A stretch of 64,000 bases of DNA from Roseivirga sp. (GTDB lineage Bacteria; Bacteroidota; Bacteroidia; Cytophagales; Cyclobacteriaceae). Positions 1,173 to 40,019 of the stretch are shown here, piece by piece (position 1 is the stretch's first letter; every line of letters starts with the position of its first letter). Under the pieces are notes generated by a model that was given only the letters and a program-made list of their open reading frames with translations, was not told the origin of the DNA and ran no database searches. The translations under genes and the position numbers were made by a program. The stretch spans positions 124,001 through 188,000 of the forward strand of contig JAAWWF010000029.1 in assembly GCA_021404565.1 (NCBI GenBank). Reading direction: 5' to 3'.

Positions 1173-1217
1173 AAACTGTATCAAAAACAAACACTTAAAT
1201 GTATTGAAAACAAACGA
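1173..1217 (+). promoter_or_regulatory. paired upstream activator sites, module 1
   Basis: Two direct repeats, TGTATCAAAAACAAAC at 1177-1192 and TGTATTGAAAACAAAC at 1200-1215, have their ACAAAC cores exactly 23 bp apart. The block 1173-1217 aligns without gaps to 22937-22981 (39 of 45 identical by hand, including a 21-base identical run). It sits about 90-130 bp upstream of the predicted transcription start of permease 1, a normal distance for enhancer-type sites of NtrC-family activators. It also begins 5 bp from the start codon of the divergent regulator. That the regulator binds here is inferred from position and duplication. Confidence 0.75.
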
Positions 1218-1277: not shown

Positions 1278-1296
1278 TTTGGCACTCCTTTTGGCT
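1278..1296 (+). promoter_or_regulatory. putative sigma-54 (-24/-12) promoter of permease block 1
   Basis: The sequence reads TTTGGCACTCCTTTTGGCT: a strong TTGGCAC -24 element and a TTTTGG -12 element. The two GG doublets start 12 bp apart (1281 and 1293), matching GG..GC spacing, but the -12 box has GG where consensus has GC. The same variant at the same spacing recurs at 23043-23061. Start of transcription would be near 1306 and the ATG is at 1322. Confidence 0.65.
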
Positions 1297-20490: not shown

Positions 20491-22890
20491 ATGTTTACGA
20501 ACTATCTGAAACTCGCCCTGAGAAGACTGCAAAGAGAGAAACTCTTTACGGTACTCAATGTAACAGGACTTACAGTGGGAATTGCCGCTTTTATACTCCT
20601 CTTTGTTTATGTGAGACACGAGTTAAGCTATGATAAATTTCACAGCCAGTTGGACAGAACTCACGTTATTGGCTGGAACATGAATGCCAGAGATGGTTTA
20701 ACCCACTCGGAAGGCTTCAGTATCAAGGGAGCGAGGCTTATGATGGATCGCATTCCTGAAATAGAGTTGATGACCCAGGTGAGCGGCCTTATGGAAGAAA
20801 GACTCATCACGATTGGTGAGTTGGCCTATTATGAAGGGGGGCTGCTTCTGACAGATGATAATTTTCTGAAGATTTTTGATTTTGAAATTCTGCAGGGCAC
20901 CGACAGACTGGGAGAACCAGCCACTGCCATGATTACCAGTGAGTTGGCTCGAAAATACTTCAACGAGCGAAACCCTATAGGGGAGTTGATGAAGATAGAC
21001 GGTGAGGGTGAGTTTGAAATTACAGCTGTTATTACTGAGCCCCCCACCAATTCTCATTTACAGTTTGACATCATTCTGTCTAACCTCAACAGGCTAAAGA
21101 GAGGGGTGGATAACCCTAAGGAGCAATACCCCTGGGGCCAGTTTGCCAGCAACTATGTGCTCTTGTCAGATGGAGCTGATCCGGGACTTATCCAACAGAA
21201 AATAGATGAGCTTAGCGCGGCTGAATTTCCTGGGCACCTGACCCGTAAAAATGAAGAAGGTATAACGGTGAGTAGCAACTATCTTTTGCCCTTTGCCGAT
21301 ATTCATCTGAAGTCAGGTTTCTCCCGTGCATTGAGTCCCGTAAGCGATATTCTGTACGTATACATCTTTTCTTCCATTGGCGTGCTCATCCTGTTTATTG
21401 CTTGTTTTAACTACATCAATCTGATTACCGCCAGATCGATGAGGAAAGCAAAAGAGATAGGTTTAAGGAAAGTAATTGGTGCCAGGCGCCAGGAGATCAT
21501 TGTTCAGCAGATTGTAGAGGCAGGCCTATTCACCTTTATATCTGTCATGCTGGCTTTTGCCCTTTCTGAGCGATCTTTGCCTTACTTCAACAACCTGATA
21601 GGTACAGAGCTGCAGCTTAGCTACTGGAGTCTCGATTTTGTAGTACTTATTTCAGGACTAACCGTTACCGTGGCATTTATAGCCGGATATTACCCGGCCT
21701 TCAAGCTGAGTAAATTCTTACCTGTAAGTGTGTTAAGAGGGGGAGGGACTCCTAAAGGAAAGTCAGGTATGAGACGCGGACTGGTTTTCTTTCAGTTCTT
21801 TATTACCCAGGTATTGATCATCTGTACTTTCATAATTCAGTCTCAACTGAGTTATCTGCAGAATAAGTCTCTGGGTTATAACAGGGAGCAAACCCTATTC
21901 ATAGAGACTCATGCCGAATTAAAGAACAGGGGAGAAGTCTTCAAGGCCGGACTTGAGCGCTTGCCCGGAGTTCAGTCAGTATCTATGAGCGAATCCATGT
22001 TTGACTGGAATGCCATTGTGTTCATTCCTTTTCAGAGTCTTGAGGGATTCGAAGATAGTAAGCCCAATGATATTTTCGTACCAAGTGTTTTCAATGTGGA
22101 TGGTTCCTTTGTTGAAACAATGGGAATGACCACCGTGGCGGGCAAGGCATTCCATGAATTGGAGAATCCAGAAACCAGTCATATCATGATTAATGAAACA
22201 GCTGCCAAACAGCTTGGCTGGGACGAGCCCTTAGGGAAGGAAATGACCATTTGGGAAGAAAAAAGAACGGTGGTTGGTGTGATCAGGGACTTTCATGATG
22301 AGTCACTGAAGGTAGTAGTAAAGCCGGCCATTCTTACTTTCGCAGAAAACCCCACGGCCTTTGTAAATATCAGACTCAATGCTTCAAATATTAGCGAGAC
22401 CATGCATGCTATAGAAGCTGAATGGGATGCTTTGGTGTCAGACAGGCCTTTCAGTTATCAGTTTTATGATGCGTTCTATGATGCTCAATACAAAAAGGAA
22501 GGCCGATTGGGGAACATCTTCAATGCCTTCTCCATCATCGCCATAAGTATCTCTATTCTGGGGCTGATTGGTTTAACCACTTTCTCGGCACAGCAAAGGT
22601 TGAAAGAGTTTGGTGTAAGAAAGGTACTGGGAGCCAGGGTAATTCAATTGATGACGCTTCTGTCTAAGGAATTCGTATGGTTGCTCGTGATTTCGTTTGT
22701 GCTGGCAGCTCCGATCACTTACTACTTTATGAGTGATTGGCTTACCGAGTTTGTCTACCGCATTGATATTGGTGTAGCGGTGTATTTGCTCGCTGTGCTG
22801 GCTACTTTGATGATATGCATGCTTACAGTAGGCCTTCAAAGCTATAAGGTATCACGGTTCAATCCCGCTGAGGTGTTGAGGAGTGAATAA
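20491..22890 (+). CDS. permease 9: duplicated FtsX/MacB-type ABC permease, last of block 1
   Basis: 799 aa from ATG 20491, one base after the gene 8 stop; the longer frame from 20467 would overlap gene 8 and add residues no paralogue has. After TM1 it reads ELSYDKFHSQLDRTHVI, so the IYR motif is lost. Docking loops are AKEIGLRKVIGA near 318 and LKEFGVRKVLGA near 705. The second periplasmic domain has TTVAGKAFHELENPETSH, NETAAKQLGW and VVGVIRDFHDESL. It ends FNPAEVLRSE. A 205-bp non-coding gap follows, the only long one in the array. It carries a hairpin and the second control module. Confidence 0.92.
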   Translation: MFTNYLKLALRRLQREKLFTVLNVTGLTVGIAAFILLFVYVRHELSYDKFHSQLDRTHVIGWNMNARDGLTHSEGFSIKGARLMMDRIPEIELMTQVSGLMEERLITIGELAYYEGGLLLTDDNFLKIFDFEILQGTDRLGEPATAMITSELARKYFNERNPIGELMKIDGEGEFEITAVITEPPTNSHLQFDIILSNLNRLKRGVDNPKEQYPWGQFASNYVLLSDGADPGLIQQKIDELSAAEFPGHLTRKNEEGITVSSNYLLPFADIHLKSGFSRALSPVSDILYVYIFSSIGVLILFIACFNYINLITARSMRKAKEIGLRKVIGARRQEIIVQQIVEAGLFTFISVMLAFALSERSLPYFNNLIGTELQLSYWSLDFVVLISGLTVTVAFIAGYYPAFKLSKFLPVSVLRGGGTPKGKSGMRRGLVFFQFFITQVLIICTFIIQSQLSYLQNKSLGYNREQTLFIETHAELKNRGEVFKAGLERLPGVQSVSMSESMFDWNAIVFIPFQSLEGFEDSKPNDIFVPSVFNVDGSFVETMGMTTVAGKAFHELENPETSHIMINETAAKQLGWDEPLGKEMTIWEEKRTVVGVIRDFHDESLKVVVKPAILTFAENPTAFVNIRLNASNISETMHAIEAEWDALVSDRPFSYQFYDAFYDAQYKKEGRLGNIFNAFSIIAISISILGLIGLTTFSAQQRLKEFGVRKVLGARVIQLMTLLSKEFVWLLVISFVLAAPITYYFMSDWLTEFVYRIDIGVAVYLLAVLATLMICMLTVGLQSYKVSRFNPAEVLRSE

Positions 22891-22936
22891 TCGAGGTTCT
22901 CTCACGCTCCTTTAACAATTAAAAACCTCCTTCTCA

Positions 22937-22981
22937 AAACTGTATCAAAAACAAACAGTTTACTGTTATAAAAACAAACGA
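22937..22981 (+). promoter_or_regulatory. paired upstream activator sites, module 2
   Basis: Sites TGTATCAAAAACAAAC (22941-22956) and TGTTATAAAAACAAAC (22964-22979) are the counterpart of 1173-1217, again with cores 23 bp apart. Here the first site is also a dyad: AAACTGT at 22938-22944 and its exact reverse complement ACAGTTT at 22955-22961, 10 bp between the arms. This suggests a dimeric binding protein. It lies in the only long gap of the permease array. Confidence 0.75.
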
Positions 22982-23007
22982 TTTCTACCCAGTGGAAATC
23001 GTTTTTT
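22976..23007 (+). terminator. hairpin plus T-run between permease blocks
   Basis: AAACGATTTC (22976-22985) pairs perfectly with GAAATCGTTT (22995-23004) across a 9-base loop, followed by a T-run at 23002-23007. This fits an intrinsic terminator about 85 bp after gene 9. The stem is AT-rich, so strength is uncertain. The left arm overlaps the second upstream site, and the whole hairpin lies between the upstream sites and the promoter of block 2. Confidence 0.6.
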
Positions 23008-23042
23008 GTATTTATATAGCTGACTATTAGGTTGTTATGAGC

Positions 23043-23061
23043 TTGGCATCTATTTTGGATA
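23043..23061 (+). promoter_or_regulatory. putative sigma-54 (-24/-12) promoter of permease block 2
   Basis: TTGGCATCTATTTTGGATA matches the element at 1279-1297 in TTGGCA, TTTTGG and TA. The GG at 23045 is 93 bp from the first ACAAAC core (22952), exactly as in module 1 (1281 and 1188). The -12 box again has GG instead of GC. Predicted transcription start is near 23070; the ATG of permease 10 is at 23096. Confidence 0.65.
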
Positions 23062-23095
23062 GCATTTCAGTGAAAACTCAATTCAACAACCAGCC

Positions 23096-25498
23096 ATGCT
23101 TAAAAGCTACCTTAAAGTACTCTTTAGAAATTTCGCCAGAAACAAATCATTCACACTGATCAATATCAGCGGCCTGACACTGGGCATTACCTGTAGTCTG
23201 GTCATGTTTCTCATTGTCAAACAAGAGCTCAGCTTCAATACCTATCACAGTAATGTCGACAGCATCTATCGAATTGGTCACATAGATGTCGTAGACGGTC
23301 GTGAATATACTCAGGGTGGAGTGCCGTTGGTCATGCCCCCGGCTGTGAAAGAAGACATAGTTGGGGTGAAAGATATCACACTGGTTTCGCACGATGGCTA
23401 TGGCCTTATTTCTATAAGGGAAGCTGGTGGCAAGATGAAGTACTATGAAGAGAATCCTGAGCTGGTCTTTATTGAGCCCAACTTCTTCGAAATCTTCGAT
23501 TGGAAGCTATTGGAAGGTTCTATTGACGAAGGATTGGATCAGCCCAATATGGTAGCACTGAATGAAACCCTGGCCGAGAAGTACTTTCCAAACGAGTCGG
23601 CTGTGGGCCAGACCATACGCCTGAATAAGCGAACAGATTTGCAGGTAATTGCGGTGCTGGAAGATGCCCCGGAAAACTCCGATTTTCCTTTTGGTTTATT
23701 TATCTCCATGGAAACTAAGAAAAACCAGACTCCCCGGGATTTCAACAATTGGGGTAGTATTTCAAGTAGCAATGTGGCTTTTATTCAGGTAGAGACCAAT
23801 GTAACCCAAGAATCAATCGAAGCGCAGTTTCCCGCCTTTATAGAAAAACACTGGGACAAAGAAACGAGTGAAGAGCGCAGCTTTGTGCTATCTCCTCTAT
23901 CCGAATACCATTTTGACGATCGTTTTGGTACTTTCAGTGGTCGTGAGGTACCCAAGGTGATTCTGTTTACATATTCCATTGTAGGCTTGCTGCTTATCGT
24001 GACGGCTTGCTTTAACTTCATCAACATGTCTACCGCAATGGCTGTAAAACGTGCCAAAGAGGTGGGAATGCGTAAGGTGCTTGGCAGTAGCAGAAAGCAA
24101 CTGGTCATGAGGTTCATTGGTGAAACCTTCGTAATCACCCTTATTTCGGTTCTCCTTTCCATGGGGCTTGCCGAAAGATTGCTGCCAATGGTCATCAATG
24201 ATTTTGTGGGAATCGAGATTCCGTTCAACCCCATAACCGACCTAACCCTACTCCTTTACCTGGTAGGTACGCTGGTCTCAGTTTCTGTACTGGCTGGACT
24301 CTACCCGGCCCTGGCTCTTTCCAGAGCTCAGCCTATCAGTGCCCTGAAGGGTGCTATGAGTAAGGGGAAAGGAAATATGTTTTTCAGAAGATTCCTGGTC
24401 TTTATGCAGTTCTTCCTTTGCCAGATTTTGATTTTCGGCACAGTTGTCGCCAGTCGTCAGATGAACTTCTTCTTGTCGGCAGATATGGGCTATGATCAGG
24501 AATGGATTCTGAATATTAATATGCGCGACAGGAGTGAAGGAGCACAAAAGCTCTGGGCATCAAAACTGGACAACCTTCCGGGTGTTCAAAACTACAGCTT
24601 CAGCTATCGCCCACCTTTTTCAGGTTCAGTTTCCTCTACCAACGGCTATTTCTACACCTCCGATACCTCTCGAATAGAAATCAATACGCAGATCAAGATG
24701 GCCGATCACAAATATGCCGAAACCTATGGCATTGAGCTGCTTGCTGGTGATTGGCTAAGTAAAGGGGATACCACAACACAATATGTAGTCAATGAGGAGT
24801 TCTTGAGCAAGGCAGGTATTGATAACCCGATAGATGCCTTGGGTCGAATTGCCAATGTATGGGGTATTCGAGCACCGATAGTGGGTGTGGTGAAAGATTA
24901 TCATACCGGCAGACTCGATGATAAGATTGAGCCTGTGGCCATGTTTAACGCCACTCGAGATTACAGAACTATTGGTATGCGCGTAGTAGCCGCCAATGCT
25001 GATGACGTAATTGAGAGCCTGGAGGAGATCTGGTATCAGGTAAACGAAGAGTATGAGTTCAGCTATAGCTTTCTGGATGAAGAAGTAAAACAGTTTTATG
25101 AAGGAGAGAAGAAGATGTCTCAACTGCTTACGGTTTTTGCCGGCATAGCCATCTTTATAGGCTGTCTCGGTCTGTATGGTCTGGTAGCCTTTATGGCCAA
25201 TCAGAAAGCCAAAGAGATTGGAATCAGAAAAGTATTGGGAGCTACAGTAGCTAATGTCATGAGAAAATTTTCTCAGGAATTCCTCTTCCTGGTTTTGATT
25301 GCTTTCCCTTTTGCGGCTGTCCTGGGCTATTTCGGTATGAATAGCTGGCTGCAGCAATATGAATACCGGATCCCCATTGGACCGGCCATTTTCATTATCA
25401 GCATAGGAGCTTCGGTCTTTATCGCCATGATGACCACCGGCTATCGTTCCATGCGCGCGGCTACTGCAAATCCTGTTAATTCTTTAAGAGACGAATAA
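23096..25498 (+). CDS. permease 10: duplicated FtsX/MacB-type ABC permease, first of block 2
   Basis: An 800-aa permease starting MLKSYLKVLFRNFARNKS. It shares INISGLT(L/I)GITCSLVMFLIVK with gene 11 over TM1, and both first periplasmic domains go FFE/KMFDW. Docking loops are AKEVGMRKVLGS near 318 and AKEIGIRKVLGA near 703. The second periplasmic domain has LLAGDWLSKGDTTTQ, then NPIDALGR and IVGVVKDYHTGRL. TM6 is FIGCLGLYGLVAFMANQ. It ends ANPVNSLRDE. It resembles gene 1, the first gene of the other block, in the FMANQK.KEIGIRKVLG segment. Gene 11 begins one base after its stop. Confidence 0.93.
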   Translation: MLKSYLKVLFRNFARNKSFTLINISGLTLGITCSLVMFLIVKQELSFNTYHSNVDSIYRIGHIDVVDGREYTQGGVPLVMPPAVKEDIVGVKDITLVSHDGYGLISIREAGGKMKYYEENPELVFIEPNFFEIFDWKLLEGSIDEGLDQPNMVALNETLAEKYFPNESAVGQTIRLNKRTDLQVIAVLEDAPENSDFPFGLFISMETKKNQTPRDFNNWGSISSSNVAFIQVETNVTQESIEAQFPAFIEKHWDKETSEERSFVLSPLSEYHFDDRFGTFSGREVPKVILFTYSIVGLLLIVTACFNFINMSTAMAVKRAKEVGMRKVLGSSRKQLVMRFIGETFVITLISVLLSMGLAERLLPMVINDFVGIEIPFNPITDLTLLLYLVGTLVSVSVLAGLYPALALSRAQPISALKGAMSKGKGNMFFRRFLVFMQFFLCQILIFGTVVASRQMNFFLSADMGYDQEWILNINMRDRSEGAQKLWASKLDNLPGVQNYSFSYRPPFSGSVSSTNGYFYTSDTSRIEINTQIKMADHKYAETYGIELLAGDWLSKGDTTTQYVVNEEFLSKAGIDNPIDALGRIANVWGIRAPIVGVVKDYHTGRLDDKIEPVAMFNATRDYRTIGMRVVAANADDVIESLEEIWYQVNEEYEFSYSFLDEEVKQFYEGEKKMSQLLTVFAGIAIFIGCLGLYGLVAFMANQKAKEIGIRKVLGATVANVMRKFSQEFLFLVLIAFPFAAVLGYFGMNSWLQQYEYRIPIGPAIFIISIGASVFIAMMTTGYRSMRAATANPVNSLRDE

Positions 25499-25499
25499 G

Positions 25500-27881
25500 A
25501 TGAAGAAGTATTTCGTAGGCCTCTGGCGTCATTTAAAAAGAAATAAAGCGTTTGCCCTGATCAATATCAGTGGGTTGACCATTGGCATCACCTGCTCCCT
25601 GGTCATGTTTCTCATAGTGAAGTATGAACTCGGCTATGATAAATTCCATAAGAATTACGATAACCTTTACCGGGTTACAAGCACTCGCCAGACTTACGAA
25701 ACCACCAGCTATAGCATTGGGGTGCCAAAACCCCTGCCTCAAGCCCTCAAAGAAGACATTGCAGGACTTGAAGAGTCTGCCTTTTTCAGCCATGCGCGTT
25801 TCGGACAATTCGTGGTAAAAGACAAAAACGGGCAGGAGAAAGAGTTTATAGAAACCAGTGGATTGGTCTACACTGAGCCATCTTTCTTTAAGATGTTTGA
25901 CTGGCAGTGGGTAGAGGGAAATGCCGAATCTCTGGCAGAGCCCAATACGGTAGTATTAGATGACGTTACAGCCGAACGCTATTTTCCTGATGGGGATGCG
26001 CTGGGGCAGGTAATGAATATGAATGGTAGTACGGACCTGAAAGTGGTTGGTATTGTCAAAGAACGTCCAAAGCAATCAGATTTCCCTTTTTCTGTCATTG
26101 TTTCATTGACCACAATCAATAGCTCTGACGACTTCACAAACTGGTACAGTACCAACAGCAATGATCGATGCTATGTGCTGATAAACAGTAATACCGAGCT
26201 AAGCTCCATTACCAGTCAATTTGAGGCCTTTGTAGACAAATATCATGGCGAAAAGAGCACAGTAACCTATGACCTGCAGGGCCTGTCAGAAGTGCATTTT
26301 GACAAGCAATATGGTAACCTCAACTATCGAGGTATTTCCTGGGACATGATCTACACCTTGTCAGGTGTGAGCTTGCTGATGATTTTGACCGCATGTTTCA
26401 ATTTCATCAACATGTCTACGGCTGTGGCCCTGAAAAGAGCCAGAGAAGTGGGTATTAAAAAAGTACTGGGGAGTACCAGGCTTCAACTGGTCTACGCATT
26501 TCTGCTGGAGACTTTTGCTATTACTTTGGTTTCCATGTGCGGATCGCTGGCATTGGCTGAAAGGCTGTTACCGGGGATCGTAAGCGATTTTGTGAGAATC
26601 GAGCTTAAGCTGAATCTATGGTCTGACCCGATCCTGATGGTGTATTTGGTAGTCCTGCTGGTGTTTATCACTTCGCTTGCGGGCCTTTATCCGGCCTGGT
26701 TGATATCAGGTTTTAAACCATCCAATGTACTTAAGAGTAACACCGCTGGGATGGGCGGCAAGAGCCTGAATCTCAGAAGAGTGCTGGTTGTTTTCCAGTT
26801 TTCACTTTCTCAGGTTTTTATTGTAGGCACCTTGATCGCCCTCTATCAAATGAACTATGTGAAGAATGCAGACCTTGGTTTCAACCAGGATCAGGTGGTA
26901 ACCCTGAACCTGCCACAGGGAAATGCACAGCAAGATGTCTGGCAATCGGTACTCGAGTCCAACACCGGGGTTAAAGACTTTTCTTTTGCCATGTCTGCAC
27001 CCTTTTCTGGTATGTCGTCCAGCACAGATGCAGAGTTTACCCAGGACACGACCAAGCAAAGGTTTACCACTTTTCTGAAACCAGCTGACGCGGGTTATAT
27101 CGACACCTATAAGCTGGAGCTGCTTGAGGGGGAGGGACTCCTTGATTCCGATAAGGCTAATCGCTATGTAATCAACGAGGCTTTCCTGCATAAAATGGGA
27201 TTTCAGAACCCGGCTGATGCCCTTGGTACCATGCTCAAGGTGGGGGGCAGAGAAGCCTATCCCATATCAGGTGTGGTTAAAGACTTTAACATGACCAGCT
27301 TAAAAATCGCAATCAAGCCTGCCGTGATTTTCAGTGATAAAGCCTATTACTCTAACCTGGGGCTTAAGCTCACGGGAAATGATACACAGGCCACTCTGGA
27401 TAAAATCGAGATTACCTGGAAGGAGCTTTACCCTGATCAGGATTTCAATCCATCCTTTATGGATGAATACATTGTTAATTACTATCAGGCGGATAAGAAG
27501 TATTCTGAAATGCTGATGACTTTTTCAGTGGTTGCCATTCTTATCAGCTGCCTTGGTTTGTATGGAATGATCTCTTATATGGCCAATCAGCGGGTAAAAG
27601 AAATTGGCATCAGAAAAGTGCTGGGAGCCAGTGTGCAGCAAATTTTACTGCTCTTTTCAAAGGAATTTACAAGACTGGCGATTATTGCCTTTCTGATAGC
27701 AGCGCCATTGGCTTATTGGGGCATGCTGGATTGGCTCAACAACTTTGTTTATAAAATATCCATAGGGCCATCGGTATTTGTAGCGGGTATCGCTACCTCA
27801 TTGGCCATTACGCTGCTTACCATAGGCTATCGGGCGCTAAGAGCAGGAAATGTCAATCCTGTGGAATCATTAAGAGACTAA
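25500..27881 (+). CDS. permease 11: duplicated FtsX/MacB-type ABC permease
   Basis: This 793-aa partner of gene 10 begins MKKYFVGLWRHLKRNKA and has ELGYDKFHKNYDNLYRV after TM1. The first docking loop carries conservative swaps, AREVGIKKVLGS near 313; the second is VKEIGIRKVLGA near 698. The second periplasmic domain has LLEGEGLLDSDKANR, NPADALGT and ISGVVKDFNMTSL. It ends NPVESLRD and so lacks the final acidic residue (Glu or Asp) that the sixteen other members carry after LRx/LKx. Its ATG starts one base after the gene 10 stop, suggesting translational coupling; a 12-bp gap precedes gene 12. Confidence 0.93.
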   Translation: MKKYFVGLWRHLKRNKAFALINISGLTIGITCSLVMFLIVKYELGYDKFHKNYDNLYRVTSTRQTYETTSYSIGVPKPLPQALKEDIAGLEESAFFSHARFGQFVVKDKNGQEKEFIETSGLVYTEPSFFKMFDWQWVEGNAESLAEPNTVVLDDVTAERYFPDGDALGQVMNMNGSTDLKVVGIVKERPKQSDFPFSVIVSLTTINSSDDFTNWYSTNSNDRCYVLINSNTELSSITSQFEAFVDKYHGEKSTVTYDLQGLSEVHFDKQYGNLNYRGISWDMIYTLSGVSLLMILTACFNFINMSTAVALKRAREVGIKKVLGSTRLQLVYAFLLETFAITLVSMCGSLALAERLLPGIVSDFVRIELKLNLWSDPILMVYLVVLLVFITSLAGLYPAWLISGFKPSNVLKSNTAGMGGKSLNLRRVLVVFQFSLSQVFIVGTLIALYQMNYVKNADLGFNQDQVVTLNLPQGNAQQDVWQSVLESNTGVKDFSFAMSAPFSGMSSSTDAEFTQDTTKQRFTTFLKPADAGYIDTYKLELLEGEGLLDSDKANRYVINEAFLHKMGFQNPADALGTMLKVGGREAYPISGVVKDFNMTSLKIAIKPAVIFSDKAYYSNLGLKLTGNDTQATLDKIEITWKELYPDQDFNPSFMDEYIVNYYQADKKYSEMLMTFSVVAILISCLGLYGMISYMANQRVKEIGIRKVLGASVQQILLLFSKEFTRLAIIAFLIAAPLAYWGMLDWLNNFVYKISIGPSVFVAGIATSLAITLLTIGYRALRAGNVNPVESLRD

Positions 27882-27893
27882 TGGAATAATATT

Positions 27894-30287
27894 ATGCTTA
27901 AAAGCTACTTCAAATCTACTTTTCGCAAACTTGTCAAAGACAAGCAGTATACTTTCATAAACATCATAGGGCTATCCACGGGATTTGCCCTCTTTCTCAT
28001 TATTGCACTCTACATTCAGCGTGAGCTGGCGGTAGATGCACATCATCAGAATGCCGATAACGTTTATCGTGTCAATACAGAAAGCACCAGTGAGGACGGT
28101 AATACCAACGCTTATGCGCTGAGCTATCACCCCATGGCCACGGCAATGACACAGGAGATACCCGAAGTAGCCAGTGCCACCAGCTTTTTTGCCCCTGCCG
28201 CTCAGCTTTCCTTCAGAGCAGGCGATAACCTCATCTCGGTAGATGAAATTTACTATACAGACCAATCTTTTTTCAATGTCTTTACACTCGACTGGGAGCA
28301 GAAAGGTGAGTTACTGAATGAACCCAACACTGTCGTGATTTCAGATGAACTCGCAGTCAGATATTTTGGTAATCAAAACCCAATGGGACAGAGCCTGGTC
28401 TATGAAAACCAGGGTCTCCGACACAGCCTGACCGTGACTGGTGTATACCGCCAAACAAACTTGCCCAGCCATTTCAGCTATGATATGCTGATCAACCATG
28501 ATGCAGGAGTCAACTTTTGGAAAAGTGGACTAGATGGCAACTGGGGACTGCTCTTTGTCTATACTTACTTCAGAACAGAAGGAACAGTGGCTAAATCTGT
28601 GCTTGATCAAAAAATCAACGGTTTAAGAACTAAATATCAGGAGGGTAGAGATGGACTGAATTACAAGGCGCAAAATCTTAGAGATGTATACTGGGACGAT
28701 GGCAATCAGTACGAGCCGGGTACCAATGGAAATTATGCCTATATCTATGTCTTTGGTGCTTTTGGACTGACCGTACTCATACTCGCACTGGTTAACTTTG
28801 TAAACCTGATGACAGCCCGTTCTATCAGGCGGTCAAAAGAGGTGGCTGTAAGAAAAATCGTAGGTGCCAGCAGAGGTGGTTTAATCATGCAGTTTCTTAC
28901 CGAATCGGTGGTACTCTCTGCACTGGCCATGATGCTGGGCGCGGTGGCCGTGGAAAGGTTGATTGGCCCTATTAACTCCAGCCTCGATTTAGGCCTGAGC
29001 TTCAGCATCTTTAGCAATCACGTCTTATTGACTTTGATTGTTACCATGCCCTTACTTATCGGATTATTCAGTGGTATTTATCCGGCCCTGATGCTTTCTT
29101 CACTGAGTGCCGGTCATCTCATTCAGCAGCGTACCCGATGGAATATCTCCCATGATCAGCTCAGGCAAGGACTTTTGGTGTTTCAGTTTGCCATTTCTGT
29201 ATTGGTGATATCTGGCGTCATGGTCATTGGCCGGCAGATGGACTTTATCAAATCCGAAGGCCTGGGGTTTACCAGTGATCCTGTCATTGTATTACCTCGC
29301 ATCAGCAATGAATCCAATTACCTGATGAGGCAGGAACTGGCCGCAACCCCATCTGTAAAAGGCATTGCATCACTCTCCAGCATTCCGGGTTATCGCAGCC
29401 CCAGGCAGAGAAATGTAAAGGAGGCCGGAACTGAAGGAGAGGGCATCAGAATGAATGGTATTTGGGTATCAGAGCAGTATGCAGATATCCTCGAACTGGA
29501 TTTTGTAGCTGGTAGAAACTTCACTTTGGAAGATCAGGAAAATGCCATGGTATTAAATGAAAAGGCAGTGGCGGATCTTGGCCTCAGCCCTGAAGAGGTT
29601 GTGGGCAGACAATTGGTCATGACAGGCCGCAATGGCTTTGGCGACACACAGTATATCATCATCGGAGTCACTAAGGATTATTACTATCAGTCTTTGTATG
29701 AAAGAGTAGAGCCCCTTTTTCTGATGAATAATAGCAAATCACGCTCTGGCGGAGACGCTTCTATTGTACAGCTTAGTGGAGGTAATATAGAAGAGGGGCT
29801 GACTCAACTCGCAGCTGTCTGGACCGATATTGAGAAAGGTGAGGGTTTTGATTATTATTTTCTGGATGATGCCGTAAATGAGGTATATCAACGAGAAGTC
29901 AAGCTCTCGAATACAGTCAACTATGTTTCAGCCATATCCATTCTTATCTGCTTGCTGGGGCTGTACGGACAAGTATCACTCAATTTACAATCACGAAAGA
30001 AAGAGATTGGTATCAGAAAGGTATTGGGAGCCTCAACCGATACAATTATCCGGTTGTTCGCCAAAAGATACGTCTGGATGATAGGCCTGAGTATCCTGAT
30101 TGGTTTGCCTGTTTCCTATCGCTTGCTGCAACTGTGGCTTGCCAATTTTGAGTACAGTATCAGCTATTCCTTCCCGCTTTACTTTCTGGTGGGTATTTGC
30201 CTGATGATAGCCAGTCTTGTACTGATTGGCATCCAATCACAAATTGCTTCGCGCATGAACCCTGTAGACACTCTGAGAAATGAATAA
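27894..30287 (+). CDS. permease 12: duplicated FtsX/MacB-type ABC permease
   Basis: A 797-aa permease with ELAVDAHHQNADNVYRV after TM1, where the usual Ser-Phe/Tyr-Asp is altered. The first docking loop is SKEVAVRKIVGA near 314, sharing the EVAV form with genes 15 and 16; the second is KKEIGIRKVLGA near 702. TM6-loop reads CLLGLYGQVSLNLQSRK, with a polar Gln in the normally hydrophobic signature. The second periplasmic domain has FVAGRNFTLEDQENAM, LNEKAVADLG and IIGVTKDYYYQSL. It ends MNPVDTLRNE. Its last bases overlap the start of gene 13 by 8 bp. Confidence 0.92.
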   Translation: MLKSYFKSTFRKLVKDKQYTFINIIGLSTGFALFLIIALYIQRELAVDAHHQNADNVYRVNTESTSEDGNTNAYALSYHPMATAMTQEIPEVASATSFFAPAAQLSFRAGDNLISVDEIYYTDQSFFNVFTLDWEQKGELLNEPNTVVISDELAVRYFGNQNPMGQSLVYENQGLRHSLTVTGVYRQTNLPSHFSYDMLINHDAGVNFWKSGLDGNWGLLFVYTYFRTEGTVAKSVLDQKINGLRTKYQEGRDGLNYKAQNLRDVYWDDGNQYEPGTNGNYAYIYVFGAFGLTVLILALVNFVNLMTARSIRRSKEVAVRKIVGASRGGLIMQFLTESVVLSALAMMLGAVAVERLIGPINSSLDLGLSFSIFSNHVLLTLIVTMPLLIGLFSGIYPALMLSSLSAGHLIQQRTRWNISHDQLRQGLLVFQFAISVLVISGVMVIGRQMDFIKSEGLGFTSDPVIVLPRISNESNYLMRQELAATPSVKGIASLSSIPGYRSPRQRNVKEAGTEGEGIRMNGIWVSEQYADILELDFVAGRNFTLEDQENAMVLNEKAVADLGLSPEEVVGRQLVMTGRNGFGDTQYIIIGVTKDYYYQSLYERVEPLFLMNNSKSRSGGDASIVQLSGGNIEEGLTQLAAVWTDIEKGEGFDYYFLDDAVNEVYQREVKLSNTVNYVSAISILICLLGLYGQVSLNLQSRKKEIGIRKVLGASTDTIIRLFAKRYVWMIGLSILIGLPVSYRLLQLWLANFEYSISYSFPLYFLVGICLMIASLVLIGIQSQIASRMNPVDTLRNE

Positions 30288-32730
30288 TCTTCTGATCAAT
30301 AACCTCAAGACGGCTTTCCGAAGCCTTAAGAAGCATCGGCTGTCGGCTGTGATCAACATAGCTGGCCTGGCATTGGGTATGGCAGCCTGCCTGATCATTA
30401 CCTTCTATGTGCAGGAAGAAATGAGCTATGATGCTTTTTACAAAGATTCACAGCGTGTGTTCAGGCTCAATACCTACTGGAAACAAGTAGAAGCAGACGA
30501 GAAGTTTGCCACAACACCGCCACCTCTGGCACCAGCTCTCGCTGGCCTTTCGCCCGATGTGGAGGCTTTTGTGAGACTCAGTAAACGCTCTGATTTTACC
30601 ATGAGACCAGACCACGATTTTGAGCGTCCATACAGAGAAACGAACGCCTGGACGGCCGATAAAGATTTTATTCAGGTATTGGATAACGGGTTACTGGCAG
30701 GTGATCCTGAAACCATGCTGGCCCAACCCAGAAGTGTGGTAATGCCTGTGAAAACGGCTATTCGCTATTTTGGTCAGGAGGCTTTTGACGAAGGTAATAT
30801 TGTTGGAAGACAACTCGGTGGAGGAGGCGATGGGGGTACCAAATGGCTGGTGACAGGAGTTATTGAAGATCAGCCAGAGCAAAGCCACTTTCAGTTTGAT
30901 ATGTTGCTCTCAAAGGAGAACCCAAATGGTCCGGGTGAGCATATCTGGGGTTGGCTGGCCTACTACTCTTACATTAAGCTTAAAGACAACAAACCTGAAA
31001 CACTAGCCCGTGTAGAGCAACAACTTGAATCCATTGTAGCCAACCATGCCGTACAGGATGTCGGTATGACGCTTGAACAGCTTCGTGCATCTGGTATGGA
31101 TATTCAATACCTGTTGCAGCCCATTGAGAGTATCCATTTGAAATCGGCACTTCTTCGTGAGATGGGACCTAATGGTAGCCTTACTTATGTGCGTTCCATG
31201 ATTATCGTGGCACTTTTTATCATCGTGCTGGCCTGCGTGAACTTTGTGAACCTCACCACGGCCAAATCCACCCTCAGAGCTAAAGAAATTGGTGTCAGGA
31301 AAGTGTTGGGTTCTGAGCGTGGTCAATTGATCGCTAAGTTCCTGACCGAATCTCTCGTCATGACCTTCATTGCCTTACTCATTGCACTCGGATTGGTTGA
31401 GTTTTTCACCAATGTGATCAGAACGGGTTTCGACTGGGAGATCAGTACTGCATTTATCCGTGAGCCACTCGTACTACTGATTGTGGTAGCCGTGACCGCG
31501 TTTATCGGCATACTGGCAGGTTTGTATCCCGCGATCTACCTCACAGGCTTTCAGCCAGTGAATGTGCTCAAAGGGAAATCTCCTAAAGGAAAAGGAGAAA
31601 AGGGCATTCGCAATGGACTGGTGATTTCGCAATTCGTTATTTCCATTGGTTTGATCATCGCTACCCTGATCATCAATCAGCAGGTAGATTACATCCGACA
31701 GAAAGACCTGGGTTTTGACAAAGAAAATGTGCTGGTCATTCAGAATGACCGGGAGATTGACGAGAGACGTGAGGAGTTTAAGACTTTCATCAGACCTAAC
31801 AGCCACATCACGGAGGTAGGGTTTAGCACAGGAATCCCCGGCTTGCCACAATACATGCGCAGAGACTTTAGCATGAGTGGGCGTGATGGTAGCATGGGCT
31901 TGAACTGGTTTCAGGCCGATGATTCTTTTCTGAGTACTATGGACGTGACTGTCATAAATGGCAGGGGGTTTAACAAAGAAATAACCTCCGATTCCAGCGG
32001 ACTGCTGCTCAATGAAACAGCTGTAAAGGAATTGGGACTGGAAAACCCGATAGGCACTTATCTGACCATCAACCGTGGAGCCAATGACGACCACCGGGTG
32101 CAGGTAATAGGGGTGGTGGAAGATTTCAATTTGCATTCCTTCGAGCGCAAAATCGGAGCCCTGGCCATAGAATACCTTGACGATTACGATTTCAAAGACT
32201 ATATCACTATTCGCCTCGCACCTGGAAACCCGGAAGAGGCAATTAAGGCTGTAGAGGCCGCCTGGAAAGAATTTGAGCCGAATGTACCCGTGGTGTATAG
32301 CTTTCTTGACAGTGATTTCGATCGTCTTTTTAAGTCAGAGAAGCGCCTGAGTAAAGTCTTCAATGCCTTTACAGGTTTGGCCATCTTTATCGCCTGTCTC
32401 GGATTGTTCGGTCTGGCGGCTTATACCAATGAGCAACGGACTCGTGAAATCAGCATCCGCAAAGTGCTGGGGGCTTCCGTAGGTTCATTGCTGAGCCTCT
32501 TGTATCAGAGTTATTTCAAACTCATCATGATTTCGTTCATCATTGCCGCCATTGTGGCCTATCTCTTCGCTCAGGAGTGGTTGTCGAACTTCGTTTATCG
32601 AACAGAAATCAGCTACAAGCCCTTTGTACTGGCATTGTTGGGCACCATCATCATTGCCGCAGCCACTGTCGTTTATCAATCATTAAAAACAGTATTACGC
32701 AACCCGGTCGATACGTTAAAAAGTGAATAA
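30280..32730 (+). CDS. permease 13: duplicated FtsX/MacB-type ABC permease, longest member
   Basis: At 816 aa this is the longest member. The start ATG at 30280 lies inside the end of gene 12 (ATGAATAA), an 8-bp overlap typical of coupled translation. After TM1 it reads EMSYDAFYKDSQRVFRL. The first periplasmic domain has extra glycine-rich sequence (GGGGDGGTKW), which accounts for part of the added length. Docking loops are AKEIGVRKVLGS near 333 and TREISIRKVLGA near 722. The second periplasmic domain has VINGRGFNKEITSDSSG, LNETAVKELGLENPIG and VIGVVEDFNLHSF. It ends RNPVDTLKSE. Gene 14 starts one base after its stop. Confidence 0.93.
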   Translation: MNNLLINNLKTAFRSLKKHRLSAVINIAGLALGMAACLIITFYVQEEMSYDAFYKDSQRVFRLNTYWKQVEADEKFATTPPPLAPALAGLSPDVEAFVRLSKRSDFTMRPDHDFERPYRETNAWTADKDFIQVLDNGLLAGDPETMLAQPRSVVMPVKTAIRYFGQEAFDEGNIVGRQLGGGGDGGTKWLVTGVIEDQPEQSHFQFDMLLSKENPNGPGEHIWGWLAYYSYIKLKDNKPETLARVEQQLESIVANHAVQDVGMTLEQLRASGMDIQYLLQPIESIHLKSALLREMGPNGSLTYVRSMIIVALFIIVLACVNFVNLTTAKSTLRAKEIGVRKVLGSERGQLIAKFLTESLVMTFIALLIALGLVEFFTNVIRTGFDWEISTAFIREPLVLLIVVAVTAFIGILAGLYPAIYLTGFQPVNVLKGKSPKGKGEKGIRNGLVISQFVISIGLIIATLIINQQVDYIRQKDLGFDKENVLVIQNDREIDERREEFKTFIRPNSHITEVGFSTGIPGLPQYMRRDFSMSGRDGSMGLNWFQADDSFLSTMDVTVINGRGFNKEITSDSSGLLLNETAVKELGLENPIGTYLTINRGANDDHRVQVIGVVEDFNLHSFERKIGALAIEYLDDYDFKDYITIRLAPGNPEEAIKAVEAAWKEFEPNVPVVYSFLDSDFDRLFKSEKRLSKVFNAFTGLAIFIACLGLFGLAAYTNEQRTREISIRKVLGASVGSLLSLLYQSYFKLIMISFIIAAIVAYLFAQEWLSNFVYRTEISYKPFVLALLGTIIIAAATVVYQSLKTVLRNPVDTLKSE

Positions 32731-32731
32731 T

Positions 32732-35110
32732 ATGATCCGACATTTCTTAAAAATCGCTTATCGAAATGGCAGAAAGAAAACTTTGTTTTCCGTTTTGAAT
32801 ATTGCCGGTCTGAGCATCGGCATTGCCTCCTTTCTGGTCATCACGCTGTATGTCTTTCAGGAGACCTCCTACGAAAAGGGGTTTGCCGATCATGAGAGAA
32901 CCTATCGTCTGGAAAAGCATCTCCTCAGCATGGGCAGAGTGGCCTGGAGCGGTTCGAACCTGCAGTTTGTATTGGATGAGGTTCCTGAAATAGAAGCTCA
33001 TGCGAGAATCCAGGTCAGTTATGGTATGGAAATCGTTGAGGACGAAAACTATTATGAGACTGACAAGACCATTTGGACAGACAATAAGTTCTTTGATGTC
33101 TTCGACTATAAAGTAATACTGGGTAATCCTGAAGCTCCACTTACAGGACCCGGATCGGTAGTATTGACCAGGGTAATGGCCGAAAAGGTATTTGGAAGTA
33201 CAGATGTAATTGGTAAGGAGCTGAAGTTGAACAGAAGCAGAGTTTATTTAATCAGCGCAGTCATTGAGAAGCCACTGATTAAATCTCATTTGGACTTCGA
33301 TATGCTCATCCACCGTCAGAATGAAGAGGCATTCTCGCCCGGAGCATGGTATAGTGTAGGAGGATATACCTACGCAAAACTCGCTGAAGGTATGACACAG
33401 GCCTCTCTGGATGAAAAGCTTACAGAAATAGCAAAGGCAAAGATTTTTCCGGTGGTAACGGGACAGGAAGAGGGCTTGAGCTTTGATGATTGGATAAGTC
33501 AGGAAGACCGTATTTCCTATTTTTCACAACCCATCGATGATATTCATCTGGAATCAAAGTTGAATTACGAAATTGATGCCGGTGGAGACAAGCAGGCACT
33601 GCTGACACTCGGGTTAATAGCCCTGTTCATCTTGATTATTGCCAGTATCAATTTTATGAACCTGACCACTGCCAGATCGTCCACCCGTACCAAAGAAATC
33701 GGTATCAGAAAGGTTTTGGGAACCAGAAAGAAGGGCTTGATAATTCAGTTTCTTACCGAAACGATGCTGCTTACTGTTGTGGCCACGGTGATAGGGGCAG
33801 CATTGGCCGAAGGAACGGTTTATCTGATTAACCAGGAGTTTGGAAATGTCTTGGGGATTTCCCTGACTAAATATCCCTCCTTGCTCCTGAATGTTGGTAT
33901 TGGCGTAGTTCTGCTGGGTCTGATTTCCGGGCTTTATCCCGCTTTTTATCTGTCTTCAGCCCGAATCATTCCATTGCTCAAAGGAATGAAGCTTTCCAGG
34001 GTGCTCAACCTGAATTTAGCCAAAGGCCTTAGAAACGGACTGGTGGTGGTGCAGTTCACCCTTTCGACAGGATTAATCATCGCGTCACTTTTTATATATA
34101 ATCAGCTGATTTTCCTGCAGAACAAAGACCTGGGCTTTGATATGGAGCAGTCCATAGTCATCGGCAATGTAGATGATTTGAAGATGAATAAGCTGGCATT
34201 TAAAAACGAAATTCTCAATATCCCCGGAGTGGAAGGAGCCTCTTTCACACAACGCGTACCAGGAGACGACTTTAATGGTACTCATTCTGTGAAGTTGGAT
34301 TTCGATAGGAGTGTGGTCATGTCCACATTTGTTTCAGACCTGGACCTCTTTGAAACCCTGGGACTGGAGCTGGCTGATGGAGACTGGTTCTCTCCTGAGC
34401 TGGTGAAAACAGATTCTAATGTAGTACTGAACGAGGCTGCGGCCTTGGCCATCGGCATCGAAGATCCTGTAGGCAAACTCTTCGGTAACTATTATCGCAT
34501 TGTCGGGGTGGTAAAAGATTTTAATTACGGTTCATACAAAGAGGGAGTAGGTCCTGCCATATTTAGCTATTCGCAAGATAATGGCAACCGCCTGGTGATA
34601 AGACTGGATACAGAACAAGCTCCTATGGAGCAAATCAAAGAGGTATGGAGCAAGTTTACTTCAGAAAGAATAGCGACACACTGGGTACAGCAAAACTTTG
34701 AAAATCTGCTCGAAAAGGAGAATCAAATGGCCAACATTGTAGCCGTTTTCACTACACTGGCCATCCTTATCTCCTGCATTGGACTGTTTGGACTCGCGGC
34801 TTTTACCGCAGATCAGCGCTTGCATGAGTTCGGCATTCGAAAAGTATTGGGAGCTACCGTCAATGATGTTGTGAGGCATTTCAGCTTTGATTTTCTAAGG
34901 CTGATTATGATCGCTTTCCTCATTTCAATCCCTTTGTCTGTCTGGGGTGTCGATGCCTGGCTGCAGGGCTATGCCGATCGCATTTCCTTAAGGGTAGATG
35001 TTTTTATACTTGCGGGTATTCTGGCATTTGCCATTGCCTTCTTTACCATTCTTTTTCAATCAATTAAAACCGGAAGACTCAACCCTGTAGATACCATTAA
35101 GAACGAATAA
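32732..35110 (+). CDS. permease 14: duplicated FtsX/MacB-type ABC permease
   Basis: 792 aa from ATG 32732; a GTG three codons upstream would overlap gene 13 and is less likely. Genes 14-16 form a subgroup. After TM1 they have (F/Y)QE.SYE..F..R/H...YQ/R, then a (G/R)..AW/R...N..(F/H)VL.(E/D)(V/I)P stretch, and in the second half DQR..EFGIRKVLGA. Docking loops here are TKEIGIRKVLGT near 319 and LHEFGIRKVLGA near 698. The second periplasmic domain is compact: LADGDWFSPELVKTDS, IGIEDPVGK and IVGVVKDFNYGSY. It ends LNPVDTIKNE. Gene 15 follows after 11 bp. Confidence 0.92.
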   Translation: MIRHFLKIAYRNGRKKTLFSVLNIAGLSIGIASFLVITLYVFQETSYEKGFADHERTYRLEKHLLSMGRVAWSGSNLQFVLDEVPEIEAHARIQVSYGMEIVEDENYYETDKTIWTDNKFFDVFDYKVILGNPEAPLTGPGSVVLTRVMAEKVFGSTDVIGKELKLNRSRVYLISAVIEKPLIKSHLDFDMLIHRQNEEAFSPGAWYSVGGYTYAKLAEGMTQASLDEKLTEIAKAKIFPVVTGQEEGLSFDDWISQEDRISYFSQPIDDIHLESKLNYEIDAGGDKQALLTLGLIALFILIIASINFMNLTTARSSTRTKEIGIRKVLGTRKKGLIIQFLTETMLLTVVATVIGAALAEGTVYLINQEFGNVLGISLTKYPSLLLNVGIGVVLLGLISGLYPAFYLSSARIIPLLKGMKLSRVLNLNLAKGLRNGLVVVQFTLSTGLIIASLFIYNQLIFLQNKDLGFDMEQSIVIGNVDDLKMNKLAFKNEILNIPGVEGASFTQRVPGDDFNGTHSVKLDFDRSVVMSTFVSDLDLFETLGLELADGDWFSPELVKTDSNVVLNEAAALAIGIEDPVGKLFGNYYRIVGVVKDFNYGSYKEGVGPAIFSYSQDNGNRLVIRLDTEQAPMEQIKEVWSKFTSERIATHWVQQNFENLLEKENQMANIVAVFTTLAILISCIGLFGLAAFTADQRLHEFGIRKVLGATVNDVVRHFSFDFLRLIMIAFLISIPLSVWGVDAWLQGYADRISLRVDVFILAGILAFAIAFFTILFQSIKTGRLNPVDTIKNE

Positions 35111-35121
35111 CGATCAAGATC

Positions 35122-37533
35122 ATGCTTAGAAAAACTTTCATATTCGCTATCCGCAGTTTTAGAAAATCTGCCTTGATGAATTTCGTAAATATTACGAGCC
35201 TCACGCTCGGACTTTCTGTCTTTTTCCTCATTTCTCTGTTTCTGTACCAGGAGACGTCTTACGAAAAGGATTTTTCTCAGAGAGATAACATATATCAGGT
35301 CAGTACACATTTCTATAACAATGGTGATTTGGCATGGACTCCCAATAACTTAAGACATGTGTTGAGCGAAGTTCCTTCCGTAAACATATTCACTGTTTTT
35401 GAACGAAGATCGACAAAGGTTTACCAGGAGAATCAGGTTTTTGAAGGAATGAAAGTACTGTTGTCAGATTCATCATTCTTTCAGGTTTTCGATTATCAAC
35501 TAATATCCGGAGAGCCCACCTCGGTGCTCAACAAGCCTAATACGGTCGTGATTACAGAGAATGCTGCAATCAAAATGTTTGGAAGCACGGATGTTGTAGG
35601 AGCAACAATTTATGTAAATAAAGACCAACCACTCATTATTAACGGTGTAAGCAAGGTTGGACATTTTAAGTCCCAACTGGACTTTGATCTGGTAATCTCT
35701 CAACCTTATTCTTCAGGGATTAATGAAACTGGCTGGGGAAGCGTAGGTTCTTATACCTATGTGTTAGCCCACAACAACATCGAGCTGGATGATTTGAACT
35801 ATCAATTGGAATCCATCAGTGAGCGATATATCTACCCACTTTTTGCAAAAAGCAACAGTAGTATATCTTCATTTGATCAATGGAAAACGGAAGAATCCTA
35901 CCTTGGTTTTTTTGCTGAACCTTTGATGAGTCTGAGGACATCTTCAGAAACATTGAATTTAATGGCGCCTCAACTCAATCGATCTCAATTCAACACCCTG
36001 ATGATAATAAGCCTGGCAGCCTTGCTCATTTCGGTAATCAATTTTATCAATATTTCCACTGCCAAAGCTTCTATTCGCATGGGTGAGGTAGCCGTAAAAA
36101 GAATATTGGGCTCCTCACGAGGCTGGCTTGTGTTACAGTTTATGATGGAGTCTTTCCTGCTCATTTTATTGTCGGCATTGCTCGCACTCGCTTTGGTAGA
36201 AGGAATCGTCAGACTTAACCCGGTTGGCCTGGCAGGCATTGTTGGGTATTCTGTTATTCATTCAGGTGAATGGTTGCTGGCTTTGTCAACATTTTTGATC
36301 CTTTTGACTTTTATATCCGGTATTTATCCTGCCTTATACCTTTCAAGCGGAAAGTTTACCAACTTTCTTCGTCATGGCGCACTGAAAAACGGATTCAGTC
36401 TCTTCAATGCTGTTCTATTCCGAAAGGTCGCCACGGTTGTCCAGTTCGTTCTTTCAATAACACTCATTGCCGGTGTCATTACCATGTTCCAGCAATTGAA
36501 TTATCTCCATGAAAAAGACCTTGGATATGAGACAGAAGGCGTTTTTGTCCTCGATAACACATATAAATTAAAGACATCGACTGAAGCATTCAGAGACGAA
36601 TTGATGAAGCAGAGCTTTGTCGAATCGGCAGCATATGCAGACCATTTTCCTAATCAACCCGATCTTGTAGTATTGGACCTGATTGTTAAATCGGAAGAGG
36701 GGATAGAAACTGCGGTAACGAGTTATCGGGCAGATCCCACCTTTTTTGAAGCCATGAGTATGAAATTCACCATGGGTGAAGCATTTCCAGAATATGTACC
36801 CAGTCCTAAAGGAAAAGAGAATACAGCCACAACTTATCCTGTCGTGATCAATGAGGCCGCGGTGAAAGCATTGCAATTGAAAGAACCTATCGGAAGTATT
36901 ATAGATAATGACAGACGTATTGTTGGGGTGGTTAATGATTTTGTTTTCAGCGGCTTAAGGCAATCAATAGGTCCGGTTATGATCGGACAAAAAAACGTGC
37001 GTCCGTATTATAAATTGGCCGTTAAAATGACTCCGGGCAATTTTGACATTGAACGTATTAATGAAGTATGGTCGGGATTTAGTGATGAAAAACTAAAATG
37101 GTACACATTGAGTAACAACTATGACAGGCTTATTAACGAAGAGAAAAGTACATTCAACTCAGTAGTAATCTTCTCAATTTTCACCATAGCCATATCATGT
37201 CTGGGCTTATTCGGATTAGCCGTTTTCACTATGGATCAACGGGTCAAGGAGTTCGGTATCAGAAAAGTTCTTGGAGCAACAATCAGTGATATAGTACGCC
37301 TGTTTGGCCTGAATTTTCTAAAGCTTATTTTATTGGCCTTTTTGATAGCCATCCCCATTTCTATTTATGGCTTGAATTTATGGTTAACTGACTTCTCTGA
37401 TAGAATATCACTTTCACCCCAGGTATATCTAATCACCGGAGCACTTACACTCCTGATTGTTTTTTCTACCATTGCGATTCAATCCCTCAAAGCCGGCAAA
37501 CTCAATCCTGTAGACACACTACGGAGCGAATAG
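35122..37533 (+). CDS. permease 15: duplicated FtsX/MacB-type ABC permease, AT-rich
   Basis: An 803-aa member of the 14-16 subgroup, starting MLRKTFIFAIRSFRKSALM. The first docking loop departs from the norm, GEVAVKRILGS near 321, and the second is VKEFGIRKVLGA near 708. The second periplasmic domain carries an insert, EYVPSPKGKENTATTYP, before VINEAAVKALQLKEPIG, and ends IVGVVNDFVFSGL. It ends LNPVDTLRSE. Hand counts in three 60-base lines gave 32-37% G+C, against 48-55% in two lines of gene 16. The base composition therefore looks lower than its neighbour's, although the lines were not chosen at random. The frame is intact. Confidence 0.92.
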   Translation: MLRKTFIFAIRSFRKSALMNFVNITSLTLGLSVFFLISLFLYQETSYEKDFSQRDNIYQVSTHFYNNGDLAWTPNNLRHVLSEVPSVNIFTVFERRSTKVYQENQVFEGMKVLLSDSSFFQVFDYQLISGEPTSVLNKPNTVVITENAAIKMFGSTDVVGATIYVNKDQPLIINGVSKVGHFKSQLDFDLVISQPYSSGINETGWGSVGSYTYVLAHNNIELDDLNYQLESISERYIYPLFAKSNSSISSFDQWKTEESYLGFFAEPLMSLRTSSETLNLMAPQLNRSQFNTLMIISLAALLISVINFINISTAKASIRMGEVAVKRILGSSRGWLVLQFMMESFLLILLSALLALALVEGIVRLNPVGLAGIVGYSVIHSGEWLLALSTFLILLTFISGIYPALYLSSGKFTNFLRHGALKNGFSLFNAVLFRKVATVVQFVLSITLIAGVITMFQQLNYLHEKDLGYETEGVFVLDNTYKLKTSTEAFRDELMKQSFVESAAYADHFPNQPDLVVLDLIVKSEEGIETAVTSYRADPTFFEAMSMKFTMGEAFPEYVPSPKGKENTATTYPVVINEAAVKALQLKEPIGSIIDNDRRIVGVVNDFVFSGLRQSIGPVMIGQKNVRPYYKLAVKMTPGNFDIERINEVWSGFSDEKLKWYTLSNNYDRLINEEKSTFNSVVIFSIFTIAISCLGLFGLAVFTMDQRVKEFGIRKVLGATISDIVRLFGLNFLKLILLAFLIAIPISIYGLNLWLTDFSDRISLSPQVYLITGALTLLIVFSTIAIQSLKAGKLNPVDTLRSE

Positions 37534-37562
37534 AAACCCAAAAACCCTGGCCTCCCCCGACC

Positions 37563-40010: not shown

Positions 40011-40019
40011 AAGAAAACC

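Follow-up and report, generated by a model that had tools for sequence, protein, structure and literature searches.

Two candidate sigma-54 enhancer-promoter modules of the same geometry precede two blocks of MacB-like permease genes in Roseivirga

Introduction

In the 64,000-nucleotide stretch of Roseivirga sp. DNA analyzed here (the window), each of two blocks of permease genes is preceded by a pair of similar sites and a -24/-12-like element, set out at the same distances. Is this spacing a trace of copying, or is it kept by selection, as might be expected of enhancers acting on sigma-54 RNA polymerase? And which regulator would read the sites? NtrC-type sigma-54 promoters with paired upstream activating sites are a known class, and the window resembles them in placing putative dyads, for an AAA+ activator of the response-regulator type, some 100 bp ahead of a -24/-12 element. 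The modules are very probably two sigma-54 enhancer-promoter units under a divergently encoded NtrC-type regulator, driving two MacB-like permease blocks: a known kind of system (sigma-54, NtrC-type paired enhancer) with an unusually clear geometric constraint. The argument is built from the sequence, its geometry and conservation, the gene context, and the presence of rpoN and of the regulator gene. On this reading the 17 genes of the permease array would gain an assigned regulator, together with its sites and two promoters.

Layout of the two modules

The first-pass annotation of this DNA had reported that the paired sites and -24/-12-like element of module 1 recur without gaps as module 2. 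Direct reading bears this out, each element lying at a constant offset of 21,764 from its counterpart (whole-module spans 1177-1295 and 22941-23059). The features are as follows.

1-1168, minus strand: gene of a divergently transcribed NtrC-type sigma-54 response regulator (457 aa), truncated at the window start and complete in L058:13796-15169
1177-1193, plus strand: module 1 site 1, TGTATCAAAAACAAACA, presumed regulator dimer site from direct sequence reading and conservation
1200-1216, plus strand: module 1 site 2, TGTATTGAAAACAAACG, presumed regulator dimer site
1249-1273, no strand assigned: IHF-like third element of module 1, differing from WATCARNNNNTTR by a single base on the minus strand (by eye)
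1279-1295, plus strand: module 1 -24/-12 element, TTGGCACTCCTTTTGGC (TTGGCA 1279-1284, -12 TTGGC 1291-1295), predicted start about 1306
1322-22890, plus strand: permease block 1, made up of nine MacB-like permease genes, each about 800 codons long
22941-22957, plus strand: module 2 site 1, TGTATCAAAAACAAACA, the same letters as module 1 site 1
22964-22980, plus strand: module 2 site 2, TGTTATAAAAACAAACG
22976-23004, plus strand: intrinsic terminator hairpin, 13 pairs and a T tail, overlapping the end of module 2 site 2
23013-23037, no strand assigned: IHF-like third element of module 2, differing from WATCARNNNNTTR by a single base at 23025-23037 of the plus strand (by eye)
23043-23059, plus strand: module 2 -24/-12 element, TTGGCATCTATTTTGGA (TTGGCA 23043-23048, -12 TTGGA 23055-23059), predicted start about 23070
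23096-42389, plus strand: permease block 2, made up of eight MacB-like permease genes

FtsX and MacB_PCD domains are present in each of the three permeases searched for domains, namely the two that open the blocks and the final one of block 2. The sites are 17 bp long and 23 bp apart in both modules, so that the coordinates confirm the spacing earlier given for the cores. The 93 bp given from core to GG holds when counted from the CAAAC inside site 1 (1188) to the GG (1281); counted from the start of site 1, as is done below, both modules have 104 bp to the -24 GG. The modules are identical over their first 21 bases (from 1173 and 22937), and site 2 of module 2 has two mismatches to the core first proposed. 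Symmetry within the modules' sites is partial (3-4 of 8 pairs); paralogue sites are more symmetric. Both -24/-12 elements have the canonical GG-N10-G spacing, and the last base of the -12 element is mostly G, not C, across modules, ending GG or GA in the window.

Single elements are near chance level in the window: the core at up to three mismatches has 11 matches against 9.7 expected, and TTGGCA-N6-TTTTGG has 117 against 94, and single matches of either kind were rejected as evidence. The bare core pair, at up to three mismatches, is modestly enriched genome-wide (41 places, against 29 for a reversed control). At zero mismatches, a genome scan for 23-bp core pairs, as the first-pass annotation had proposed, found the pair in exactly 2 places in 8,573,991 bases (8.57 Mb), solely at modules 1 and 2.

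How might such a locus work? The two dyads, spaced by 23 bp, would each take up a dimer of the divergently encoded NtrC-type response regulator; once phosphorylated, the dimers would assemble an AAA+ oligomer and, by looping, contact sigma-54 RNA polymerase at the -24/-12 element, from which transcription would start. A DNA-bending protein of the HU/IHF family may occupy the third element just upstream of -24. Module 1 would drive block 1, ending at the terminator within module 2, and module 2 would restart transcription for block 2 under the same control as block 1, which would make the two blocks co-regulated. Site 2 of module 1 would probably also cover the regulator's own promoter, leading to autorepression.

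Conservation in relatives

With the regulator as query, 39 genomes were searched, 19 of them in the genus Roseivirga. An orthologue is present in 17 of the 19 (78-100% identity); the two genus genomes without one are 80 and 84% complete. The paired-site pattern, in a longer form and at up to three mismatches, occurs in 16 of 19, with 0 matches for a reversed control, and a second module in ten of 19. Nine of these ten have it 5-22 kb downstream; in the tenth it is on a different contig. In the seventeenth orthologous locus (G018, L080) site 1 is rearranged and more symmetric; this is the exception among the 16 aligned module-1 rows, the other 15 of which keep site 1. The distance from site 2 to the GG is identical in all 16 rows, L080 included, and the GG-N10-G falls in the same column in each, though the rows of one genus share ancestry and such counts are not independent trials. 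L077 is absent from this alignment and present in the 58-module set described below. Among module-2 rows, site 1 to GG measures 104 bp in nine of ten and 105 bp in one; for these rows, as for the 58 modules, the promoter was first sought only at 98-109 bp and the search was then repeated freely.

A scan of one genome per species gave 17 stretches with an exact pair match, largely from the same genomes as the 19-genome count and so not independent of it. A free promoter search at 40-220 bp placed the best sigma-54-like score at 104 in 15 of these and at 105 in one. An exact match in Echinicola was rejected as chance (no promoter at 104, no regulator beside the pair); the scan found nothing else of the same kind elsewhere.

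Paralogous regulator families

Is the same layout found beside related regulators? The survey covered 115 regulator genes from seven families, and their upstream regions were searched with a general TGT/ACA dyad score that allowed spacings of 17-45 bp. The best spacing was 23 bp in 45 of the 115, the next values having seven regions each; with one composition-keeping shuffle per region the largest count at any single spacing was seven. The 23-bp spacing is best in 16 of 18 regions of the window regulator's family, nine of nine in family C72 and 12 of 16 in C81a. By the same score it is best in only one of seven C34 regions, and the rule is not followed in C61 (3/21), C8 (4/31) or C81b (0/13), whose layout was viewed by eye only, with an anchor that used the third element and is thus biased. 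Each paralogous family has its own type of site beside its own regulator: TGTTCC or TGTTTC with GGAACA or GAAACA in C72, TGTnTC-N5-GAnACA in C81a, and TGTTCTAGGTTGGAACA in most C34 loci.

A set of 58 modules was assembled from 17 of the window family, ten second modules, 16 from C81a, nine from C72 and six from C34. The paralogue site patterns were written after viewing the sequences, so that these modules are selected for having sites; two loci, L081 and L187, did not match the hand-made patterns and lie outside the set. In a free search at 45-220 bp the promoter falls uniquely at 102-105 in 54 of the 58; the other four comprise two ties and two placed elsewhere, including the C81a locus of the window's own genome.

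Outside the genus, 61 upstream regions comprise 36 without a strong promoter, 20 with a promoter and no strong pair, and five with both. The five all have 23-bp spacing, with the GG at 103, 104, 105, 105 and 93 (two, L152 and L195, were already in the 115-region set). The step from 104 to 93 bp is about one helical turn and thus fits a face-of-helix constraint, in three cases (the one here and the two own-genome permease promoters described below), which are few.

One may venture, with somewhat less than even confidence, that the frame itself is inherited: paralogues would rewrite the recognition bases and keep the dyads 23 bp apart, the GG at about 103-105 bp (or 93) and a symmetrised IHF-like element fixed close to the promoter, and new permease operons would arise through insertion of an entire module, even around a terminator. 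If this were true, these enhancers would be locked in position rather than position-tolerant. The modules also form a natural collection of putative paralogous enhancers whose spacing is preserved and whose sequence is not, making the dependence of sigma-54 activation on helical phase and distance testable.

The third element

Column conservation across modules picks out a further block about 15-34 bp upstream of the GG; weak in itself, it is conserved across relatives and lies close to the promoter. Of the 58 spacers, 25 contain an exact match to the E. coli IHF consensus, WATCARNNNNTTR as given in the parts covered of two papers (PMC3897727, PMC7962754); shuffled spacers average 1.0 such matches and never exceed 5. 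Counted from the GG, most matches sit at -32/-33 (minus strand) or at -20/-21 (plus strand). Allowing one mismatch raises the count to 53 of the 58 spacers, against 15.6 in shuffles (maximum 29); shuffles here and in the dyad-spacing survey kept base composition only. A PF00216 search of the genome gave a single match and no gene for a second IHF subunit. The element was for this reason rejected as a proven IHF site, and is named IHF-like only.

What else might it be? Relative to the predicted start the third element occupies roughly -32 to -57, a region in which upstream-promoter elements are located. It is also partly palindromic, with matches on both strands at mirrored positions. Together with the single PF00216 gene, these features make it a serious possibility, though one we would put somewhat short of even, that the alpha subunit of RNA polymerase contacts it as an upstream-promoter element, or that an unknown dimeric factor binds it, and that it is not a site for IHF or HU. 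The excess of exact consensus matches at two fixed positions speaks against this, as do the IHF sites described at -42 and -43 at the orp sigma-54 promoters of D. vulgaris, of which, in the parts of the paper covered, the orp1 -42 site is not the functional one (PMC3897727).

The element has also yielded a search rule. Scanned together with the promoter at up to two mismatches, it occurs in 32 places in the genome, against 11 for the control, and led to permease promoters unlinked to the window in the same genome. Among the 11 of these 32 places that were examined, five are followed by permease genes, two by efflux-adaptor-like genes and two by short ORFs; the other two (L226, L227) fall inside long ORFs and are probably chance. 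At L222 (G000:C77:110115) a perfect match to the third element and promoter lies near a gene for a PAS-type activator and is followed by a short ORF; the usual type of dyad pair was not seen there.

Spacer sequence and the origin of module 2

The sites of 16 module-1 rows (with L077 and without L080) have a mean pairwise identity of 0.96, the promoter one of 0.72 and the third element one of 0.57; in spacer columns 42-69 the value falls to 0.36. Between module 1 and module 2 spacer identity is 0.33, equal to the chance value from composition. Substitution in the spacer is thus saturated with almost no change in length, as predicted by selection on distance.

The earlier description of the bases between sites and promoter as unrelated stands for the two spacers compared with each other, which are at chance level (23 of 62 positions identical); it does not stand for the third element, which is conserved across relatives, or for the terminator hairpin in the module 2 spacer. 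Selection on enhancer-promoter geometry, which had been proposed on the grounds that spacing is kept and sequence is not, as expected for sigma-54 activation, finds support here: the distances hold despite a saturated spacer, and three paralogous families keep them. Fixed distances across DNA that has changed almost wholly suggest that the spacing itself matters.

Could module 2 be a mere copy, carried along in duplication of the permease genes, its equal spacing inherited and uninformative on selection? The first 21 bases of the modules are identical and both modules lie within one array of related genes; however, the spacers have kept their length at chance identity, a second module is found in ten of the 19 genomes, and module 2 is conserved as a type of its own, with its own terminator, so that we consider this unlikely. 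Common descent of the two modules is compatible with the data; recent common descent is excluded, and recent copying as the source of the equal spacing was rejected on the chance-level identity of the spacers.

Terminator and the regulator's own promoter

A terminator search of the module 2 spacer found one hairpin, against 0.1 in shuffles (fold z -5.09). Terminator-like hairpins occur in eight of ten module-2 spacers, seven of them scoring at least 12; the other 48 spacers include 16 with such a hairpin, scoring at most 11, among them seven of the 17 module-1 spacers, scoring at most 8. The hairpin suggests that block 1 probably ends at the terminator inside module 2 and that transcription of block 2 begins anew.

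In module 1 it is the bases between the two sites that are additionally conserved: TAAATGTAT is present in all 17 module-1 rows and in none of ten module-2 rows. Read on the minus strand it is TACATTTA, fitting five of the six specified bases of TAnnTTTG, the -7 box of Bacteroidota according to the parts covered of PMC7366714. The regulator's own promoter is probably located under site 2 of module 1, on the minus strand, with the site covering the putative -7 box TACATTTA; no -33 element was identified for this predicted promoter. Autorepression of the regulator through site 2 would follow from such an arrangement.

The regulator and its kinase

The divergent regulator has an AAA+ domain (PF00158, 6.6e-66), this being its Pfam match; its receiver aspartate, Walker A and B motifs and C-terminal Fis-type region are visible in the sequence, the receiver and Fis-type parts having been identified by inspection. 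PF00158 has 19 matches in the genome, 12 of them strong (1.1e-58 or better). Each regulator's predicted sites were assigned from their neighborhood, which leaves room for the paired sites to belong to some regulator other than the divergent one. This we regard as very unlikely: 16 of the 17 exact-pair stretches from the scan of one genome per species lie within this type of gene cluster, in the ten of those stretches with module 1 matched the divergent regulator begins 15-18 bases before the site, and the paralogous families have their own site types adjoining their own regulators.

A kinase gene adjoins the regulator in five of six record loci examined (one of them cut by the end of the stretch) and is absent beside it in L205; the coordinates given for this sensor kinase are L058:12458-13796. 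In the window's own genome the kinase is not beside the regulator in the locus inspected, and a kinase 80% identical to the neighbor kinase is found on another contig (G000:C26:14896-16245).

Sigma-54 dependence

With the sites given to the divergent regulator, does it act through sigma-54? The genome has a single rpoN match (PF04552, 1.4e-55). The sigma-54 contact loop of the regulator reads GAFTDA, not GAFTGA, in 17 of 17 orthologues. Published examples of the variant point both ways in the parts covered: in one paper GAFTDA is listed as an active variant, for DVU2106 and its sigma-54 target operons (PMC4641369); in the other, a pull-down with VfmH of Dickeya, which also has GAFTDA, did not recover sigma-54 (PMC10714721). 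GAFTDA is also found in five paralogues in the window's own genome, a sixth having GSFTDA, and three PAS-type activators keep GAFTGA. Points against the reading as a whole are the loop variant, a -12 end that is not GC, the partial symmetry of the sites, the three families that depart from the 23-bp rule, the single PF00216 gene, the lack of an adjoining kinase and the shared ancestry of rows from one genus.

That the GG elements are not sigma-54 promoters, the operons being started instead by another sigma factor or at a housekeeping promoter (TAnnTTTG) while the regulator acts otherwise from the paired sites, would accord with the loop variant, the -12 end and a module 1 sequence, TCCTTTTG, that fits TAnnTTTG at five of six specified bases (by eye), but is highly improbable given that rpoN is present, that GG, CA, T and G at positions 0, 1, 2-3, 10 and 12 rank next to the sites in conservation across the 58 modules (though these were chosen by a score rewarding them), that the same bases are conserved in the unscored module-1 alignment, and that no E. 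coli-type sigma-70 promoter is found at 22850-23150 (the scan model does not cover Bacteroidota promoters).

Relation to known systems

Usual enhancer distances are quoted as 100-150 bp and 100-140 bp (PMC7057263 and PMC7962754, respectively); in their parts covered these reviews give ranges and not fixed values, whereas the distance here is nearly invariant in the genus and across three paralogous families. The orp operons of D. vulgaris and their activator DVU2106 are alike in having a GAFTDA activator, palindromic sites, divergent operons and IHF sites between the activator sites and the sigma-54 promoters, one at -43. They are unlike in that DVU2106 is a single-component regulator with cell-division targets and an identified IHF heterodimer, against one PF00216 gene here (both comparisons from the parts covered of PMC3897727 and PMC4641369). 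Desulfovibrio likewise has many paralogous sigma-54 response regulators, every one with a motif of its own close to its operons; common fixed distances are not stated in the parts covered of that mapping study (PMC3333781). In a survey of Bacteroidia, COG0577, the permease part of ABC-type antimicrobial peptide transport, is enriched among predicted sigma-54 targets; the survey consists of promoter predictions only and, in its parts covered, names no regulator, site pair or geometry (PMC12316311).

A literature search found, among the matches listed, no prior description of the twin-module system. New here are the IHF-like third element, the terminator in module 2, the same frame in three other regulator families, and the 93-bp members.

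Other permease loci

At two unlinked permease promoters, L220 (G000:C15:213828) and L228 (G000:C1:154170), C81a-type dyads lie 21 bp apart (by eye), with the GG at 93 bp. Another permease cluster, L057 (G000:C72:2690, 7642 and 7839), has three TGTTCC/GGAACA pairs, two of them in tandem before one gene, and in this own-genome C72 cluster the best promoter for the three pairs is at 103, 105 and 106. Back in the window, the ORF list for 1322-42389 has no same-strand ORF of at least 90 aa other than the 17 permeases, so that no ATP-binding partner is visible there. Read in frame within 3761-42389, 16 of the permeases have a C-terminal tail in common: NP (15) or SP (one), about five residues and an acidic end, for example NPVDSLRSE.
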